The notes beneath the pieces are model-generated. The model was not told the DNA's origin and made no database searches. It saw only the letters and a program-made list of their open reading frames with translations. From Syncephalastrum monosporum B8922 (Eukaryota; Mucoromycota; Mucoromycetes; Mucorales; Syncephalastraceae), in NCBI GenBank assembly GCA_000697355.1, contig JNEN01000867.1, forward strand, positions 1 to 64,000: a stretch of DNA of 64,000 nucleotides. The letters are read 5' to 3'. The position numbers and the translations under genes are program-made. Positions within the stretch are counted from its first letter, which is position 1. Each line of letters opens with the position of its first letter. Below are positions 4,792-64,000 of this stretch, piece by piece.

Positions 4792-5581
4792 TCAGGATAG
4801 GAAAGCGTGGGTTGGTTGGAGAAAGGGCGTGTGTTGGGTTTCAAAGACGGCGAGGGAATCCTATTTTGGATTCTCGAGCCTTTTTCTCTAAAAAGAAGAA
4901 ATAGAAAAGGGAGAAGGAAAATCCGCCTGTTATCGAGTGAACGACGCCCGATGCAGTTGCTGTGTAGGTTAGGTGGCAAGCGACTAATGGAAGAAACCAA
5001 AGCTGCTTATCCTTTGGGTGTGTGATAGAAGTTTCACTACATACTGTATTCGACTGTGTACTGTACATATATTGTGGTGTGATGGATAAACTGGAAGGGG
5101 CCCCAATGCAAGGTTGCACCGACTCCATTTCAGTGCGCACGCCCAGTCGCAACGCATGTATACACACACCGCATTCTCGCCTTATTGAACAGATACGCAC
5201 ACGCCCATAAAATAATTCATTCTGATTGACTCAATCCTGCCCAAATAGAAACCATCCTTCTTTATTTACACCCTGCCCCCCGCCCTTTCTCTCGTTCGAC
5301 TAATCGAGCCAAACTTATCACTATTCCACTCCAGCACCCTGGCTAAAAGGATCACATGGTATCCAAACAACCATAACTCTATTTTGGCTTCCTCTCCTGC
5401 CAACCCATCGCACGTCCGATAAACATTTGCCATTTTTTTGAAAGATGTCCAATATTCTTTTTGTTTTATTTGAGACAAAGAAGACGAAGTTCTTTTGTTG
5501 ATGCTCCTCCCCCTTTCAAAAAGTTCTATGAAATTACAGTCTAATGTCCGGCGGTGGCGTTCATCAATTGGGGCGTGGTAT
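4792..5581. other. Intergenic, promoter side of the GATA gene
   Basis: Between the start of the GATA gene and the 3' end of the ADP/ATP carrier. No supported gene; open frames here are short and differ in all frames. The carrier 3' UTR should occupy its right part. Confidence 0.5.
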
Positions 5582-7011: not shown

Positions 7012-8564
7012 TCAGGAACCAATGTCCAACTTTTTCAGCTCTTCCTTGGTCATCTTTGGGATATCATTTAAGGCCTGCTCAATAATCTGGCCAGCTTTGG
7101 TAAGTTCTTCCTCCGAAATGACCAGCGGTGGTGCGAGCCGAATGATGTTGACGTGCGTCGGCTTCGCGAGCAGACCCCTTGATTTGAGTAGCAGGCACAG
7201 CTCCCAGGCCGTCTTGTCCGACTGAGTCTCGTCAATGACAATAGCGTTCAGCAGTCCTTTTCCGCGCACTAAATGAGACAGACAGTTAGAGAGAGAGAGA
7301 AAGGGAGGGTGTCAGCAACAGGAAATTTCTTCCAGTCGGTTTCAAATTTATCAGAACAAAACTTACCCGTCTGGAGAAGAGGGCTCTTGATGTTACGCAA
7401 CTGGGTGCGGAACTGCTCGCCCAACTTTTCGGCGCGCTCGGACAGCTTTTCATCTTGAATGACCTCCAAGGCAGCGATGGCTGCCGCACAGCCGAGGGGG
7501 TTGCCACCGTAGGTCGATCCGTGCTCGCCTGGCCGGATGCACAGCATCACATCCCGATCAGCCAGCACAGCCGACACCGGATAAACGCCGCCGGACAGGG
7601 CCTTACCGAGCAGCACCACATCCGGACGGACGCCGTCGTGCTCCACACAAAGCTTCTTGCCCGTGCGTCCCAGACCCGTTTGAATTTCATCAGCAATGAA
7701 GAGCACATTGTGCTTCTCGCAGAGCGCCTTGCATCGCTTGAGATAACCTTCGTCGGGCACCATGATGCTACAAGTCCAGAATCACATGTTATCATTGGTT
7801 TATCTTTTCCCTTTTTCTTTATCGTTATCTTTCAAAAAACTTACCCCGCCTCGCCTTGGATGGGTTCCACCAGAAAACCAGCAACGTGCTTGCCATGCTT
7901 TTCAAGGACGGCCTCCAGGTCATCTGCGTTGTTGTACCGGATCAACGGGCAGCCATTGACCTTGGGACCCACGAGCGGCAAAAACGGACCGAATTGGCCA
8001 AACGAGTCCTCGTCGGTGCTCATGCTGATCACGCCTGTGGTGCGGCCGTGGAAGTTGTTTTCGCAGCTGAGCACGATGGCCTGATTATCCGGGATGCCCT
8101 TCTTGACGTAGCCCCAGCGGCGTGCGAGCTTGATCGCAGTCTCGACTGCCTCGGCACCGGTGTTGACGGGGAGAACCATGTCATAGCCAAAGTACTGCGT
8201 GACGTATTTGGAAAAGGAGCTAAACACATTGTTGTAGAACGCACGGGAGGACAATGTCAATATTTGTGCCTGATCGCACAAAGCTTTGACGATCTTGGGG
8301 TGACAATGGCCTTGGTTGACAGCCGAGTAAGCGGACAGGAAATCGAGATACTCGTTGCCCTCCGGGTCCCATACGCGAGTGCCTTGCGCCTTGGCAAAGA
8401 CGACCGGCAGAGGGTGGTAGCTATTTGTATCCAGAGGAAGCATGTCAGTGAGGGTGAAGTTGCTTCTGGTTGGGTGTCCATTGATATTATCCACATGTAA
8501 CATACTTGTGAGCGCTATAGTCGTGCTCGAGTTGAATGCATTCTTCAGTAGAGAGTTGAGTCAT
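7012..8564 (-). CDS. Ornithine aminotransferase (EC 2.6.1.13)
   Basis: PLP enzyme that converts ornithine plus 2-oxoglutarate to glutamate-5-semialdehyde and glutamate, in arginine breakdown and proline formation. Exons 8564-8506, 8420-7845, 7767-7367 and 7268-7012 give 430 residues, the normal length. Class-III aminotransferase features are visible: [15 protein letters not shown] around the PLP-phosphate site, FADEIQ-type motif ([14 protein letters not shown], Asp at about 238) and the PLP lysine in GKALSGG (about residue 267), then GSTYGGNPL. The junction of exon 1 and 2 restores [15 protein letters not shown], which is highly conserved in the family and validates the small first exon. No clear mitochondrial presequence, so it is probably cytosolic as in yeast Car2. 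Confidence 0.96.
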
Positions 8565-9935
8565 GTTCAAGGAGTGAGAGAGAGAGAGAGGAAAGAGTGA
8601 CGGATTCGTCTTCATGCGAACAGCCGTCTTATTTAAAGCGCCGCGTGTTTTTTTCGCACGGATATTCACACGGGGTTTGCATCACTCTCACTGTCGGCAG
8701 CACATACACATAGCATCACTCGTACTACAAGTCTATTTCCGCATCCGCAACCTTCTTTTTCGTCACAGCGAAAGATAACGTTCCAATTAGATCATCAATC
8801 CATTGACTTTATCGAAATATATTTCTTGCATTTTCTTTTGGAACCGTCAATCCATTTTTTCCGTGTAAGCAAATCGAAATACAAATAGTTTAGCTCACTT
8901 GACACGGATGATGACGCGCTACAATGCCTCGTTTATTGGCCATGCATCAGGCGACGTCGTCATTGACTTTTTGGCTTGGGAGACTCACCGTGTGAGCTAC
9001 ATTGCCGCCAGGTCACGCAAGCATCTGGTTGGTTGGCATGCCATGACAAACATAAAGGAAACATCCGACTGGTAATATCTTATAAAGCATGTACCAATCT
9101 GATGGAGAGGAGATGTAGCACGCGTGAGAACTGTGCAGATTGGCTTTCAGATGAGGTGGCACATTCGGTGTTGTTTGGGCTGATAAATTGATGGCGAGCA
9201 AGATATGCCGTTAAGTGACTAGTCGCCTGCCGTTAAGTGTTAGACCGGCGGAAAAGGCCGGGAGTTTCTTTCGCTGGAAGTGGTGCTGAGCAGGTACATC
9301 AGAGAGCATGCACACGTTACATACAGTACTGCAATGCGGTGTTTACGCGCCCCTTGGGTTGCGCTGTAATGTGTCTTTCCTTTCCGGATCCATCTTCCAA
9401 ATTTTTCAAAGAGACCCAGAGATATGGAGTCAAATCAGCAATCAAGGGGTGGTGCTGGTCGGGATGGAAAAGAGAAATGCGTGATTGATACTCATACATA
9501 CTCAGCAATACCGACAGCAAGGAAAAAGTTCGCAATGAAACTTTATATCCATGCGTGTCTGTGCCTGGCATGAAAAAGATTGGCGTGTCTGTTTGCCTGT
9601 TCTCCCAGGGCTACGCTGCCTTCTTCTTTGGCTGCTGCAGTTGCGCTTCATCCTGTGCAGCGTACAGGAAATCTGTTCAATAAAAGTGCCTACATGCTAT
9701 CATGTCGAATGATTTCCATAGCAGCAGCATCAGCAGCTGACCCAGTCGAGAAAGTGTGTGTGTGTGTGTGCGTGTGTCTAATTGCGAATTCAGGAGTACG
9801 TGTCTCTGTCACTCACTTCCCCACTCATTGCATTCTTATCCTTATATTTTCTTTCCTTACCTTTTTTTTCCCTCACTTTTTTTTTACGAAGCGACCTGGC
9901 TCATCTTCCTGTCTCAGTGTGCCTTAATTGATGCC
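8565..9935. other. Divergent promoter region between ornithine aminotransferase and striatin
   Basis: Contains (GT)n at about 9755-9775 and several homopolymer runs but no supported gene. A possible 5' exon of striatin sits at about 9720-9755 (it reads as Gln-rich QQHQQLTQSRK after a TAG acceptor, ending at the GT repeat), so the true striatin N-terminus may begin inside this stretch. Confidence 0.45.
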
Positions 9936-59822: not shown

Positions 59823-62318
59823 TTAGCTCGAAGGAGCATAACGCCAGCGTCGTGCTATGCTATGCACCGTTTCCACAAACGCGTCCCAGGACTCAATGCT
59901 AGCTGGCTTAATCTCGTCCACCGAGTCAGGCACGCTATCAGCCTCAACCGGCACAACCTACGCACCCACGTAAGAGAATTAATATTCAAATGAAACGAAC
60001 AAGCTATCGAATGAACTTACCGAAAGTTCTGTGCGACTGGAGCGTGTGATCTGGTCTTCGATATCACTTACGACGACCATGGAATTGTTAACAAGGTACT
60101 GCGAGTCATAACGGAAAGCGATATGTGCAAGCGTCATTTCCTCGTCCTGCGTGACCTTGTTCAACGCCATCGGGCACTCGAGTTCCGAGTATCTAAAAAT
60201 ACCATGAGCGTGTATTCCTTTGTACCTCCTATTGACCTTACCCAACGGATTCACACTGCTCGAGGAGTTCGCTCATCACGGGCGTCAAGCTTTGCATACC
60301 AGGCTTCTCAGACGCACCAAAGAGGGTGCATCGGTTGGCCAATAAGCGGACATCGATAGTGCTGGTGAAGAAAAAAAGTGAAATCCGACATCAATAACTC
60401 TGTGTAAAAAATACTAGATGCACAAGCACTTACCCAGCCAAGTCGAGCATATCCAATGTGGATCTGCTGTGTTCACCCACGATCCGATCGAGCTGCAGGT
60501 CACCTGTCTCCTGCACATTGAATCCAACCTCGAGACGCTGGAGACCTTCTTGGTCAGCATGAACGTCATTCAGCGTCGCCAAAAGCGACCGGTTGACGTA
60601 GTGAAGATGCACCGAGCGGCGATGTCGGCCAGCCTCGACTGAGATGGGCATGAAAGGGGCGGTGATACGCGTCGGTGGGTGTCTGTACATGGGGTGAGCC
60701 ACGCTTTTTTCACTGTATTCTTATGAGCACTTACGCTGCCATGAACGATTTGCGTCCTCCGGTGGTCACTTGGGCCAAATAGTCTTGCAGCGCATTCAAG
60801 GAAAAGTTACCGACTAAACCGGGCTGCAGGATATTGGGGCCCTGTCCCAGGACAGGATTTTGAAATAGGCCGTTGCCAAATCTAGTAGAAACATGAGCCA
60901 TCTCGACTTGCCCCACTTTACCTACTTACGTTGCTTTCAAGTTTGTGACCTCGCCCTTGCTAACGTCCAGAGGTTCGAGAAGCCGGGCCTTGATTTTTGA
61001 CCAGTCGAGTGGATCTTGGGATTTGGCTTGTTCCCTATGTATATTCATGTTATAACAGATGTGTCTGTTGTTTGATCGTTCTACTTACGGTTCCCGACTA
61101 TGTACGAAGTAATAGGGTAGATCGGTCACGCTTGTGTTGATGGGCTGGAAAGACACAATGAATCACGCCAGTGTATACCAGGAAAAGCCAGCTTGACTTA
61201 CCGTGACTTGGGATTTCTGTATACGGCTCCAACCAACGGAGCGAGACACCAAGGGAAGGGCGAGCGGGTCATGGACGGGCATGAACTGGAGGTCGAGCTG
61301 GGTCGAGGGGTATTCAATGACAGCGCCGTCCGACGCATCCAACGAGGGGGTCTCGGTGAATTCGAGCTAGCAATAGTACGGCATGGGTATGGACAGTAAT
61401 CGAAAATTACACACTGTTTTGCATACCTCTGTCAAGGAAAGCTCGAGCATATGCTGAGCGTCTTGGATGGCATCCTGCGTGCGTGCCCAAAAATGGAACT
61501 AAAGAATCACAAGGGTTAAGTGAGCGAACACAGCATGCAGTTGCGCTCACCTTTTGGTCGACCAAGTCAATGTAAGCCTCGCATGTCTTTGAGATATCGG
61601 TGACGACGGGGCTGATCCGGCTCGTAAAGTCAGGCCAGGCGAGGTGCGAGGCCAAGCGAGGAATGTCGGCCGAAGCATGCTTGAAGACAAGGCTGGCCTC
61701 CACCTTCTGGCGGGCTTGCTCGACACTGTCGGGTTGACCTTCGATGACGTATCGTAACTTATCAAACTGGACAGTGATCCGGACCTGGTCTTCTTGCTCA
61801 ATTTGTCGGAGGGCCTCGCCATTGTCTTGGACGAGGAAGAAGAGGTCGTGTTTAGCCCCGCGGCCAATGTGCTTTACGTCGTTCCTGCGTCGTTGGCGTT
61901 CCTCCTCGGCAATCATGTCTTTGCTCTTGACGCCCCAGAGGTCGTGCATAATGTGGCTGATGAGATCGCGTTTCCTCAGCGACTTGTTGGCAAAGCGCTG
62001 TTGTTGTCTGAGGTAGAGTCGTAGCTGAGGGACGGTGAACGAGTTGTTGAGGCTGTCGCGCACTTTTTTGTACTCCTTGTTAGAAAGCACCGACTTGAAT
62101 TGTTTCTCTCCATCGGATCGTTGTTTATAGGCGGGCTGGAGCGCTTCGATCGCGCCAAAGATGGTACGATCTTGGGCTGCCGTGTCGTCCGGAAAGAGAT
62201 TCTCGTCGTTCGGGCGGATCGCTGTTGCATGAAAGCGGGCACATGCCACGCGGGTCTTTAGAGCGGGACGCACCAAGGGCGTACGCACCCAAGAGAGCGT
62301 GCAACGAAGCGATGCCAT
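59823..62318 (-). CDS. Sls1-like mitochondrial inner-membrane-associated protein
   Basis: Probably the counterpart of yeast Sls1, which couples mitochondrial transcription to translation at the inner membrane. Ten phase-consistent exons: 62318-61551, 61498-61427, 61366-61202, 61144-61089, 61034-60930, 60881-60735, 60682-60434, 60361-60242, 60192-60021, 59957-59823; 662 residues. The N-terminus is a mitochondrial presequence (Arg/Ser/Leu, no acids: MASLRCTLSWVRTPLV). Then FTVPQLRLYLRQQQR ... LISHIMHDLWGV, a SAP-like segment found in Sls1 proteins, and a KH-like stretch VRITVQFDKLRYVIEGQPDS. The C-terminus ends WDAFVETVHSIARRWRY. The start is the ATG at the presequence; a longer open frame upstream to 62513 is not presequence-like. 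Family call is from motif memory and should be treated as probable. Confidence 0.75.
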
Positions 62319-62566
62319 GACCAGCCTTGCGATGTGCGTTTGACAGCTGCAAGGCAGAAAAAAAAAGTCGCAATTGAAGTACAGCTTTGTTGATGGCCTA
62401 TCTGGAATTTTTGTGGCCGATGATACAGTGAAGAAAATAATCCTGTCGCATGCCCATGAAATTCGTATTGGTGTCAAACGCAAGAGTCGTTTGACATCCC
62501 AAGTCAAGCTCAAGGAAGCTTGCTTTTTAACTCATTTCTTTGTTACACACCATCTTAACAATACAC

Positions 62567-62677
62567 ATGGGTAAAAACCGCCCTTCCCATAAGCCTCGTG
62601 CCATCAACGAGAGAGTGCTGACGTCCAATATAAACCGCAAAAGTTATACGGGCATATTGCCCGAGCCATCTGTCTGA
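62567..62677 (+). CDS. Short ORF, 36 residues, possible truncated host gene
   Basis: Reads MGKNRPSHKPRAINERVLTS and ends ILPEPSV. The basic start resembles nucleolar or ribosome-associated proteins, and it is divergently placed 248 bp from the Sls1-like start, as a real promoter would allow. The frame stops 101 bp before the 3' end of the Fanzor remnant, so it may be the 5' end of a gene cut off by that insertion. Not recognised. Confidence 0.35.
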   Translation: MGKNRPSHKPRAINERVLTSNINRKSYTGILPEPSV

Positions 62678-62778
62678 CCGGCGGCTCATACTATTCTTGT
62701 TCTTTTATCTGAATGGTATGTGGTGGCGCCACGTCTTGTTTTCCTTATTTTGCGAGGTCCGGAGCTCTCTCCCGTCGT

Positions 62779-63985
62779 TCATCGTTGTTGACGCGCATGT
62801 AAGGCGGGATGAAACAACTCTCTTGGTCTTTGGCTCGTCCTCAGGAAAGCATCCGACGCCAGGACTTTCTTGTGCGCCGCCATTCTGTCCCTGTGGAAGT
62901 AGTACTTGCACTCCGGGCATACCTTGACACGAAGGACCTTTTCTTAAGAACATGGTGTACACCTGCTTGCCTTCTTGCAGGCAACGTGGGCAGACTCGGC
63001 TGGTACAGAATCCATTGATTCGTACAATCGGATATCCCTGCTGCTTGGCATGGCGTGTCAGTGCGCTCAGAAGCTTGTTGTCCATCGGGGACATGGCGCC
63101 TTTTCCTGGGGTACTACTGCCTTGTCCGTCGAGACCAGCTACAATAAGGACATTGGCCCGGTTTGCATCACCAACTCTTTTCGCAGTTCCTAGCAACAGG
63201 TTGCAAGTGCGGTCTACTTGCGATCGGATAGACATCTGCGTGGTCCAGAATTTGCGTGCAACAGAAGCACTCGTGTAAAATCTGCGGAGCTGGCCCCTTC
63301 GTCCGTTTGCTTGGTAAGAACGAAGCTTTCCCTTGAAGGAGCCCCGCAGGTTTGTACCCTTGACATGTCGTGAGATCTCTGCTTCGATTTGGTGCATGCC
63401 TAGGCGGTCTTTCCTGTTCTCTAACCAGCGAGCATTGCATTTGGTCTTTCCATAGATCTCTTGACGAGGGACATAGATCTGGATACCCTGTTTCTCGCTC
63501 GCTTGACAGACGGGCATGGCGAAAGAGGCGACTGGGCAGATTTCACCGAAATCCATACCAATAATGGTCTTTACAGATTTTGATACGTCCGTTGTCAGGA
63601 ACGAGCGGATGTCTGGGTAGTGTTCCTTTCCGTGAACCTCTCGCTTTTTGATCCAATTCGTAAGGGTTTGGAGAAGTCGAATCCCGTCTCTCTTGGAAGA
63701 TGTGCCAACTGTATATGTGGGTAGCGTCTTACTAGGAATGAACTTGCGGAGCTTCCAGTGGTAGGCGCGCTTGTAAAGATTGACACTGTTCCCTGTGGCA
63801 ATAACTTTGGTCGAGATGTCGAGACGAGCCCCATCGCATGTGATCGGAGTTCAATAACCATGGCATCATATATACTTTAGCTTTCTATCAGCAGGGGCCC
63901 CAGCAAGATAGCTCTTATAGTTGAGCAGAAAACTATTCGCCGTGTCCTTATCACAGGACTACTCCATAATACGAGCTAGAGATAC
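62779..63985 (-). pseudogene. Decayed Fanzor (eukaryotic TnpB-like RNA-guided nuclease), running toward the window end
   Basis: Minus-strand coding sequence related to TnpB/Fanzor RuvC nucleases. The continuous frame from 63850 holds a basic segment (NLYKRAYHWKLRKFIPS), then RuvC-I with its Asp in IIGMDFGE (codon 63553-63551), a bridge-like region LENRKDRLGMHQIEAEISRH, and VLIVAGLDGQG...KLLSALTRHAKQQG. The TSR-VCPRC zinc knuckle follows INGF, where the family normally has a Glu (catalytic, RuvC-II) at the Gly codon 63013-63011. The second knuckle VKVCPECKYYFHRD and the RuvC-III Asp (62889-62887, RDRMAAH) are found in a frame one base away, after an A4 run at 62942-62939. Upstream, 63985-63852 also reads like coding but has stops at about 63872 and 63852. 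So the copy has a catalytic substitution, one frameshift and N-terminal stops; unannotated short introns could explain part of this. Confidence 0.75.
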
Positions 63986-64000
63986 CTTGGGAGTCCATGC

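Follow-up and report, generated by a model that had tools for sequence, protein, structure and literature searches.

A decayed Fanzor copy in Syncephalastrum monosporum and its relatives with a predicted N-terminal XPG/FEN1-type nuclease

The window analyzed here is a stretch of 64,000 nucleotides from the Mucorales fungus Syncephalastrum monosporum B8922 (assembly GCA_000697355.1, contig JNEN01000867.1, positions 1 to 64,000). Its minus strand carries, around position 63,000, the remnant of a gene for a Fanzor; Fanzors are RNA-guided DNA nucleases and eukaryotic relatives of Cas12. The genome, 27.5 Mb in 198 contigs, was searched for related sequences; copies are named after their contigs, and the window is contig C94, 1-64000. 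In our judgment the remnant is most probably a copy of a mobile element that has decayed and lost its 5' part. The fuller protein of this element would consist of an N-terminal XPG/FEN1-type nuclease, a lysine-rich linker and a Fanzor, with a guide-RNA scaffold following at the element's 3' end. As a relic the window copy is ordinary; the interest lies in the family behind it, to which it points the way and to which it contributes a right end. The following features were identified:

62645..63976, minus strand: whole remnant, delimited by blastn homology to C162 and C186; the 5' limit is approximate and the right end is kept.
62705..63850, minus strand: open frame of 381 aa from stop to stop, encoding the C-terminal half of a Fanzor from the region before RuvC-I to the first zinc knuckle.
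63542..63559, minus strand: RuvC-I motif GMDFGE, read directly; it aligns with DCGE/DLGE of the relatives.
63011..63013, minus strand: GGA codon, encoding Gly in the position of the alternative RuvC-II Glu, from reading and alignment A1.
62981..62992, minus strand: first zinc knuckle CPRC, within CTSRVCPRC, from direct reading and alignment A1.
62779..62943, minus strand: second frame, with the knuckle CPEC (62919-62908) and the RuvC-III motif HRDRMAAH (62895-62872).
62645..62714, minus strand: conserved 3' segment, 83% identical to C162 over 70 bp; probably the right end with the region of the guide-RNA scaffold.
62645..62667, minus strand: hairpin-forming core of the right end, GGCTCGGGCAATATGCCCGTATA, with 11 places in the genome.
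61410..62321, minus strand: first long exon of an SLS1-like host gene (Pfam SLS1_N, E 1.9e-9), outside the element.

A first-pass annotation made from the letters of the window had described a Fanzor-type remnant with collinear motifs at 62779..63985. This was borne out: GMDFGE, CPRC, CPEC and HRDRMAAH can be read directly on the minus strand. The remnant does lie in this interval, but the DNA homology, beginning near 63976, reaches further at the 3' side, to 62645, and takes in the right end. The assignment to Fanzor also goes beyond chance, as the window protein has 23 matches in the genome at E<=0.001 including itself, and the best of the 22 others shows 79% identity over 246 aa. A profile check, which the annotation had proposed, gave a divided result: Pfam Cas12f1-like_TNB matched both pieces in profile order (positions 3-36 in the first frame, E 7.7e-4; positions 39-58 in the second, E 5.1e-3), but both matches were below the cut-off of 26.3 bits. 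The frame 63850-62705 goes out of frame past the first knuckle, and the two knuckles are split over two frames as had been noted, whereas C186 reads in one frame across the linker between them. PMC3627910 gives the Fanzor/TnpB pattern as D-X(125,275)-[TS][TS]XX-C4 zinc finger-X(5,50)-RD. C164 shows this spacing within one frame (DCGE, TSQICPHC, CRVC, HRDG); in the window copy the distance from D to TS is 182 residues, and the second knuckle and RD are in the other frame.

In Fanzors, according to PMC10711439, the RuvC-II Glu precedes the first knuckle Cys by six residues, rather than lying about 50 residues upstream of the finger. Alignment A1 has nine rows, eight of which carry a letter at this column, the ninth having none. 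Seven of the eight show E and only the window row shows G, confirming the reported exchange of Glu for Gly. The residue lost in the window is the repositioned, alternative Glu and not the canonical one. At the canonical place, about 40-45 residues upstream and placed by eye, M, L or V precedes DG in the rows of this genome; the window copy is thus not alone in lacking a Glu there. Two relatives from outside this genome, P0002 and P0003, have Glu in the canonical position (GED) as well as in the alternative one, which may be relevant to the relocation of the site. In C186, a near relative, the Glu codon and a single frame across the linker are retained, and it shares neither lesion with the window copy. 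The coding sequence upstream of the last coding exon is absent from the window copy, whose DNA homology ends at about 63976. This 5' truncation adds to the loss of the Glu and the frame break, and agrees with the earlier proposal of an inactivated copy. Judged from its sequence, the window copy is an inactivated Fanzor with the Glu lost, the frame broken and the 5' half gone. The ratio of nonsynonymous to synonymous substitution rates (dN/dS) of the window copy is 0.41 versus C162 (240 codons) and 0.36 versus C186 (293 codons). These low values suggest that most of its divergence arose under coding selection and predates its death, so that the copy would have died comparatively late.

The relatives predicted to exist elsewhere in the genome were found, and the better-preserved ones keep the Glu and have both knuckles in one frame. 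A genome scan with Cas12f1-like_TNB gave 26 places, 25 of them above the cut-off, and did not pick up the window copy. Nearest to the window protein are C162 (79% over 246 aa, with one internal stop) and C186 (75% over 187 aa). A second group shows 41-48% identity to it (C179, C173, C164, C176, C24 and C156) and a distant group 29-38% (C166, C116, C3 and C16). RuvC-I reads DCG, DFG or DLG in the rows of A1, and DPG in none. PMC10711439 describes DPG as near exclusive in Fanzors. We treated it as typical rather than defining, because SpuFz1 itself is reported with metal coordination by D383 and N385 (PMC10432273). A scan of viral contigs with A1 yielded 15 pattern matches and no relative.

The same genome contains a second Fanzor lineage (L001 1-1455 on C46, L004 1-1020 on C86, and further Cas12f1-like_TNB matches), whose L001 has ADPG at RuvC-I and VDEYYTSQVCSRC, i.e. 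DPG plus the alternative Glu. Fanzor copies of C186, C176, C24, C156, C3, C173, C46, C86 and C40 are within about 1.5 kb of contig ends; because so many are, the assembly probably breaks in Fanzor repeats. C162 (L030, L050) looks chimeric: the XPG and upstream portion has 86% DNA identity to C164, whereas the RuvC portion is close to the window copy and has a protein identity of only about 42% to C164.

In a point that the annotation had not raised, the relatives with upstream DNA read as fusions of an XPG/FEN1-type nuclease with a Fanzor and not as plain Fanzors. When the exons of C164, the best-preserved copy, are joined across seven GT-AG introns (46-74 nt), an uninterrupted protein of 1,426 aa from 8 predicted exons results, of which about 390 residues correspond to the XPG/FEN1-type nuclease and are followed by the Fanzor. 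The intron between the two parts has 61 nt and its phase matches. Reading base by base, the exons upstream of the Fanzor exons encode the nuclease motifs MG(I/V)K, (V/I)D, LV(L/F)DS, READAQVVY, SRDGDLF(A/C)YGG and GNDY in this order in both C164 and C166. The N and I regions with their acids and an H3TH region with GxDY, which mark XPG/FEN1 nucleases, are thus present in both copies, and we take the aligned acids to be the metal-binding acids of the XPG/FEN1 superfamily. C179 and C162 contain the same XPG exons by alignment, with a shifted start in C162; in C16 the XPG parts end with the I region, and what follows is a late Fanzor part; in C77 the XPG tail is directly upstream of a decayed Fanzor N half. 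GT and AG are kept at all seven introns in C179 and at all five alignable introns in C162, while intron lengths vary among C164, C179 and C162 (74/78/76 nt for intron 2, 72/72/74 for intron 3, 59/54/58 for intron 5). The XPG half shows, by the substitution pattern, signs of purifying selection: dN/dS is 0.26 for C164 versus C162 (372 codons, dS 0.23), 0.34 versus C180 (171 codons, many gapped positions dropped) and 0.50 versus the very close C179 (389 codons). Values among young copies ranged from 0.31 to 2.22 and are uninformative. At the right end of C164 (L034, about 5260-5364) the stop codon of the close copies is absent, so that the frame continues past this end and the last residues are encoded by the right end and the flank.

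Searches with the C164 exons found three proteins each outside this genome. One of them, P0006, is the 'hypothetical protein EC973_000314 [Apophysomyces ossiformis]', from another member of the Mucorales, and was separately annotated as one protein. In a two-sequence comparison it aligned to C164 residues 129-1178 in a single collinear stretch with 22.6% identity (E 1.7e-43); the best of 30 shuffled controls reached 26.2 bits. Its parts also match C164 singly, with E values of 5.9e-25 for the XPG, 2.3e-16 for the middle and 1.9e-6 for the RuvC part. P0006 is incomplete, as it starts without the XPG N region and ends inside RuvC, but the I region and GNDY are present, and its XPG_I match (E 2.1e-4) is below the cut-off. 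A structure model of P0006 had a mean predicted local distance difference test score of 32.5 and was disregarded. P0005 (source tag lgn) has one open frame over the XPG tail and the Fanzor N half with 39% identity (residues 346-976), and P0002, which comes from a contig of equal length (17,803), matches the Fanzor C half of C164. A profile built from three sequences detected five EXO1 sequences at E 3.1e-5 to 5.4e-4, with RAD2 next at E 0.2. XPG_I was below its cut-off in every test of the family, and NCBIfam gave no match for P0006 or the XPG part. A whole-genome scan with XPG_I found five places, none of them an element copy, which we took for host genes.

The 3' segment 62645-62714 is common also to distant subfamilies, and the right-end sequence recurs in subfamilies with only about 40% protein identity. 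The first-pass annotation had supposed that the element's ends were probably elsewhere in the genome; recurring hairpin right ends do occur at other loci, but the window keeps its own at 62667-62645. The 11 places of GGCTCGGGCAATATGCCCGTATA were obtained with at most three mismatches, the reversed control giving none. In most copies GGCTCGGGCAATATGCCCGTATA is followed by TAGTTTCTATATA or a near variant, beyond which the flanks diverge; the window copy departs from the other right ends after CGTATA. Eight of the 11 adjoin Fanzor frames (C24, C94, C156, C164, C173, C176, C179 and C186), those of C38 and C184 are beside short C-terminal leftovers, and that of C180 has no Fanzor frame beside it. 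The right end of C162 is more divergent and was recovered by BLAST. In a hand-drawn structure of three hairpins 88.2% of 136 cells pair, compared with 22-50% when the partners were slid; 14 of 500 shuffles reached this pairing and two of 500 the covariation score. Two pairs are changed on both sides, a number which 285 of the 500 shuffles also reach. The last two hairpins are also recovered by RNAalifold, where the covariation term of +0.34 is unfavourable, and Rfam gave no match at gathering threshold in 62400-64000. The segment is the probable place where an omega RNA would lie.

At the other side, C164 and C179 have a common sharp left limit at TATATTCAGC. In C164 a frame which by eye resembles an aldo-keto reductase starts about 40 bp after this limit. 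C179 has about 350 bp extra at its left end, mostly missing in C164 (oriented 8140-8722, L049 and L032 joined), with a frame that by eye is like the end of a Rieske-type host gene. No transposase was recognised by eye among the upstream frames of C164 and C179, for which no profile search was made, and the best candidates for an inverted right end upstream in C164, C179 and C162 agreed at 17-19 of 31 bases, which is not convincing. Helitrons end in 5'-TC and CTRR-3' with a 3' hairpin, or in the case of Helitron2 in asymmetric inverted repeats, and an autonomous partner provides the Rep/helicase. A 3' hairpin is present at the right ends of the family, most of which read CTATATA and not CTRR. 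Retroposition was not adopted as an explanation of the 5' truncation, since introns are retained in the fuller copies. C79 is a 5' fragment with no right end; plain decay therefore occurs besides the one-ended loss of 5' parts.

We lean slightly towards the view that this fungal element lineage encodes a two-nuclease RNA-guided protein, a catalytically complete FEN1/XPG-type nuclease joined to a Fanzor, in which the second nuclease processes R-loop or cut ends and partly replaces a transposase, the window being a dead relic of the lineage. The right-end hairpins would be transcribed as omega RNA, with the DNA just past the element end as guide, and the Fanzor half would open and cut matching DNA. 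The most likely role of the XPG half would be to trim flaps, bubbles or displaced strands at the Fanzor cut. Repair from the element-bearing copy could then keep or multiply the element. The window copy itself would now perform none of these steps. As regards the role of Fanzors in their carrier elements, an XPG-Fanzor, if true, would tie RNA-guided cutting to end processing; it is a concrete protein to test, which appears to be selected and is seen in another Mucorales species.

Several observations weigh against such a fusion protein. Single-sequence matches of the nuclease part are weak, with XPG_I at E 7.3e-4 for one exon and 0.0066 and 0.016 for joined exons, and EXO1 at E 0.018. A RuvC/zinc-knuckle fold was found, but the best fold match was Cas12j, level with Fanzor, in a model with a mean predicted local distance difference test score of only 49.4. 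Covariation in the right-end hairpins is modest. Only five of the 13 examined family loci with Fanzor RuvC sequence (C158, C197 and C69 being outside this count) have XPG exons upstream, namely C164, C179, C162, C166 and C16, and the last is a weak match with a deletion; five further loci are cut by contig ends (C173, C176, C24, C156 and C3) and three are 5'-truncated (C94, C186 and C116). XPG pieces with no detected Fanzor part are present on six contigs (C79, C180, C196, C131, C17 and C167), for which a separate XPG gene family may be the source; in C79 only exon 1 occurs within the 1.65 kb inspected, and C196 is at a contig end. In C180 (L047 433-1558) an inverted XPG part is directly against the solo right end with no Fanzor frame between. 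These solitary pieces, together with the fact that the exon joins of C164 are predictions and that a matching donor site of the joining intron is not clearly recognisable in the diverged and decayed C166, would also fit two neighbouring genes in one element, an XPG-like nuclease and a Fanzor, with the fusion as an artefact of exon joining. We consider this unlikely: the two parts of C164 are only 61 nt apart with matching phase, conservation of the Fanzor N exon between C164 and C166 begins about 130 residues ahead of its first Met, P0005 is open across the joint, and the depositors annotated P0006 as one two-part protein.

Other explanations concern the window copy itself. TnpB-derived repressors exist in bacteria, and a domesticated, nuclease-dead RNA-guided repressor would be in line with the lost catalytic Glu, the kept right-end hairpin sequence, the mostly constrained divergence from C162 and C186, and a position some 325 bp upstream of the SLS1-like gene, which has the same orientation. 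Between the knuckles, however, the frame is interrupted, and the copy is without its N-terminal half, where Fanzors have their recognition part; the low dN/dS can date from before the frame break, and we regard a repressor as highly improbable. The same holds for a frame break that is the intron of a working gene. The family is intron-rich, but C164, C179, C173, C176 and C186 read through the linker with no intron, the only GT..AG stretch noticed by eye has about 20 nt compared with 46-74 nt in the family, and splicing would bring back neither the Glu nor the 5' half that has been lost. An unrelated protein with RuvC-like and zinc motifs by chance might be suspected from the low score of each Pfam piece and from the window protein alone, which had none of 1778 candidates at E<=0.001 in a large protein database and a single chance-level match (E 0.8) in the PDB. 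This explanation is already refuted by the 22 other matches in the genome, by relatives above the Pfam cut-off and by the common right end.

The preferred reading, a decayed copy of an XPG-Fanzor element, can be compared with known systems. One-ended transposition is reported for the Chlamydomonas Fanzor1 elements CRe-1, 2 and 3 in PMC3627910. Like these, the family keeps right ends, has lost 5' parts and shows extra host sequence at one left end; as differences, a 5' fragment with no right end (C79) also occurs, and a Helitron link was not seen. PMC10432273 describes ghost loci in Spizellomyces punctatus, which have omega RNA and no protein; the right end of C180 with no Fanzor frame and those of C38 and C184 with C-terminal leftovers are similar, although known from DNA alone. 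Compared with Fanzor1 of S. punctatus (SpuFz1) and of Parasitella parasitica, Mucorales (PpFz1), the family adds an N-terminal XPG/FEN1-type nuclease of about 390 residues and has DCG, DFG or DLG at RuvC-I instead of DPG. The main texts of PMC3627910 and PMC11423790 contain no mention of XPG or FEN1. In the literature on Fanzor/TnpB with XPG or flap endonucleases we found no description of such a fusion, an earlier account being possible, and as far as this literature was searched, an XPG/FEN1-type nuclease and a Fanzor in one chain appears to be an undescribed arrangement. With EXO1, XPG (Rad2) and FEN1 the family nuclease has in common the MG(I/V)K start, LV(L/F)DS, EADAQ, SRDGDLF and GNDY, ordered in this way in C164 and C166; unlike these enzymes, it is joined to a Fanzor and is encoded in a repeated element.
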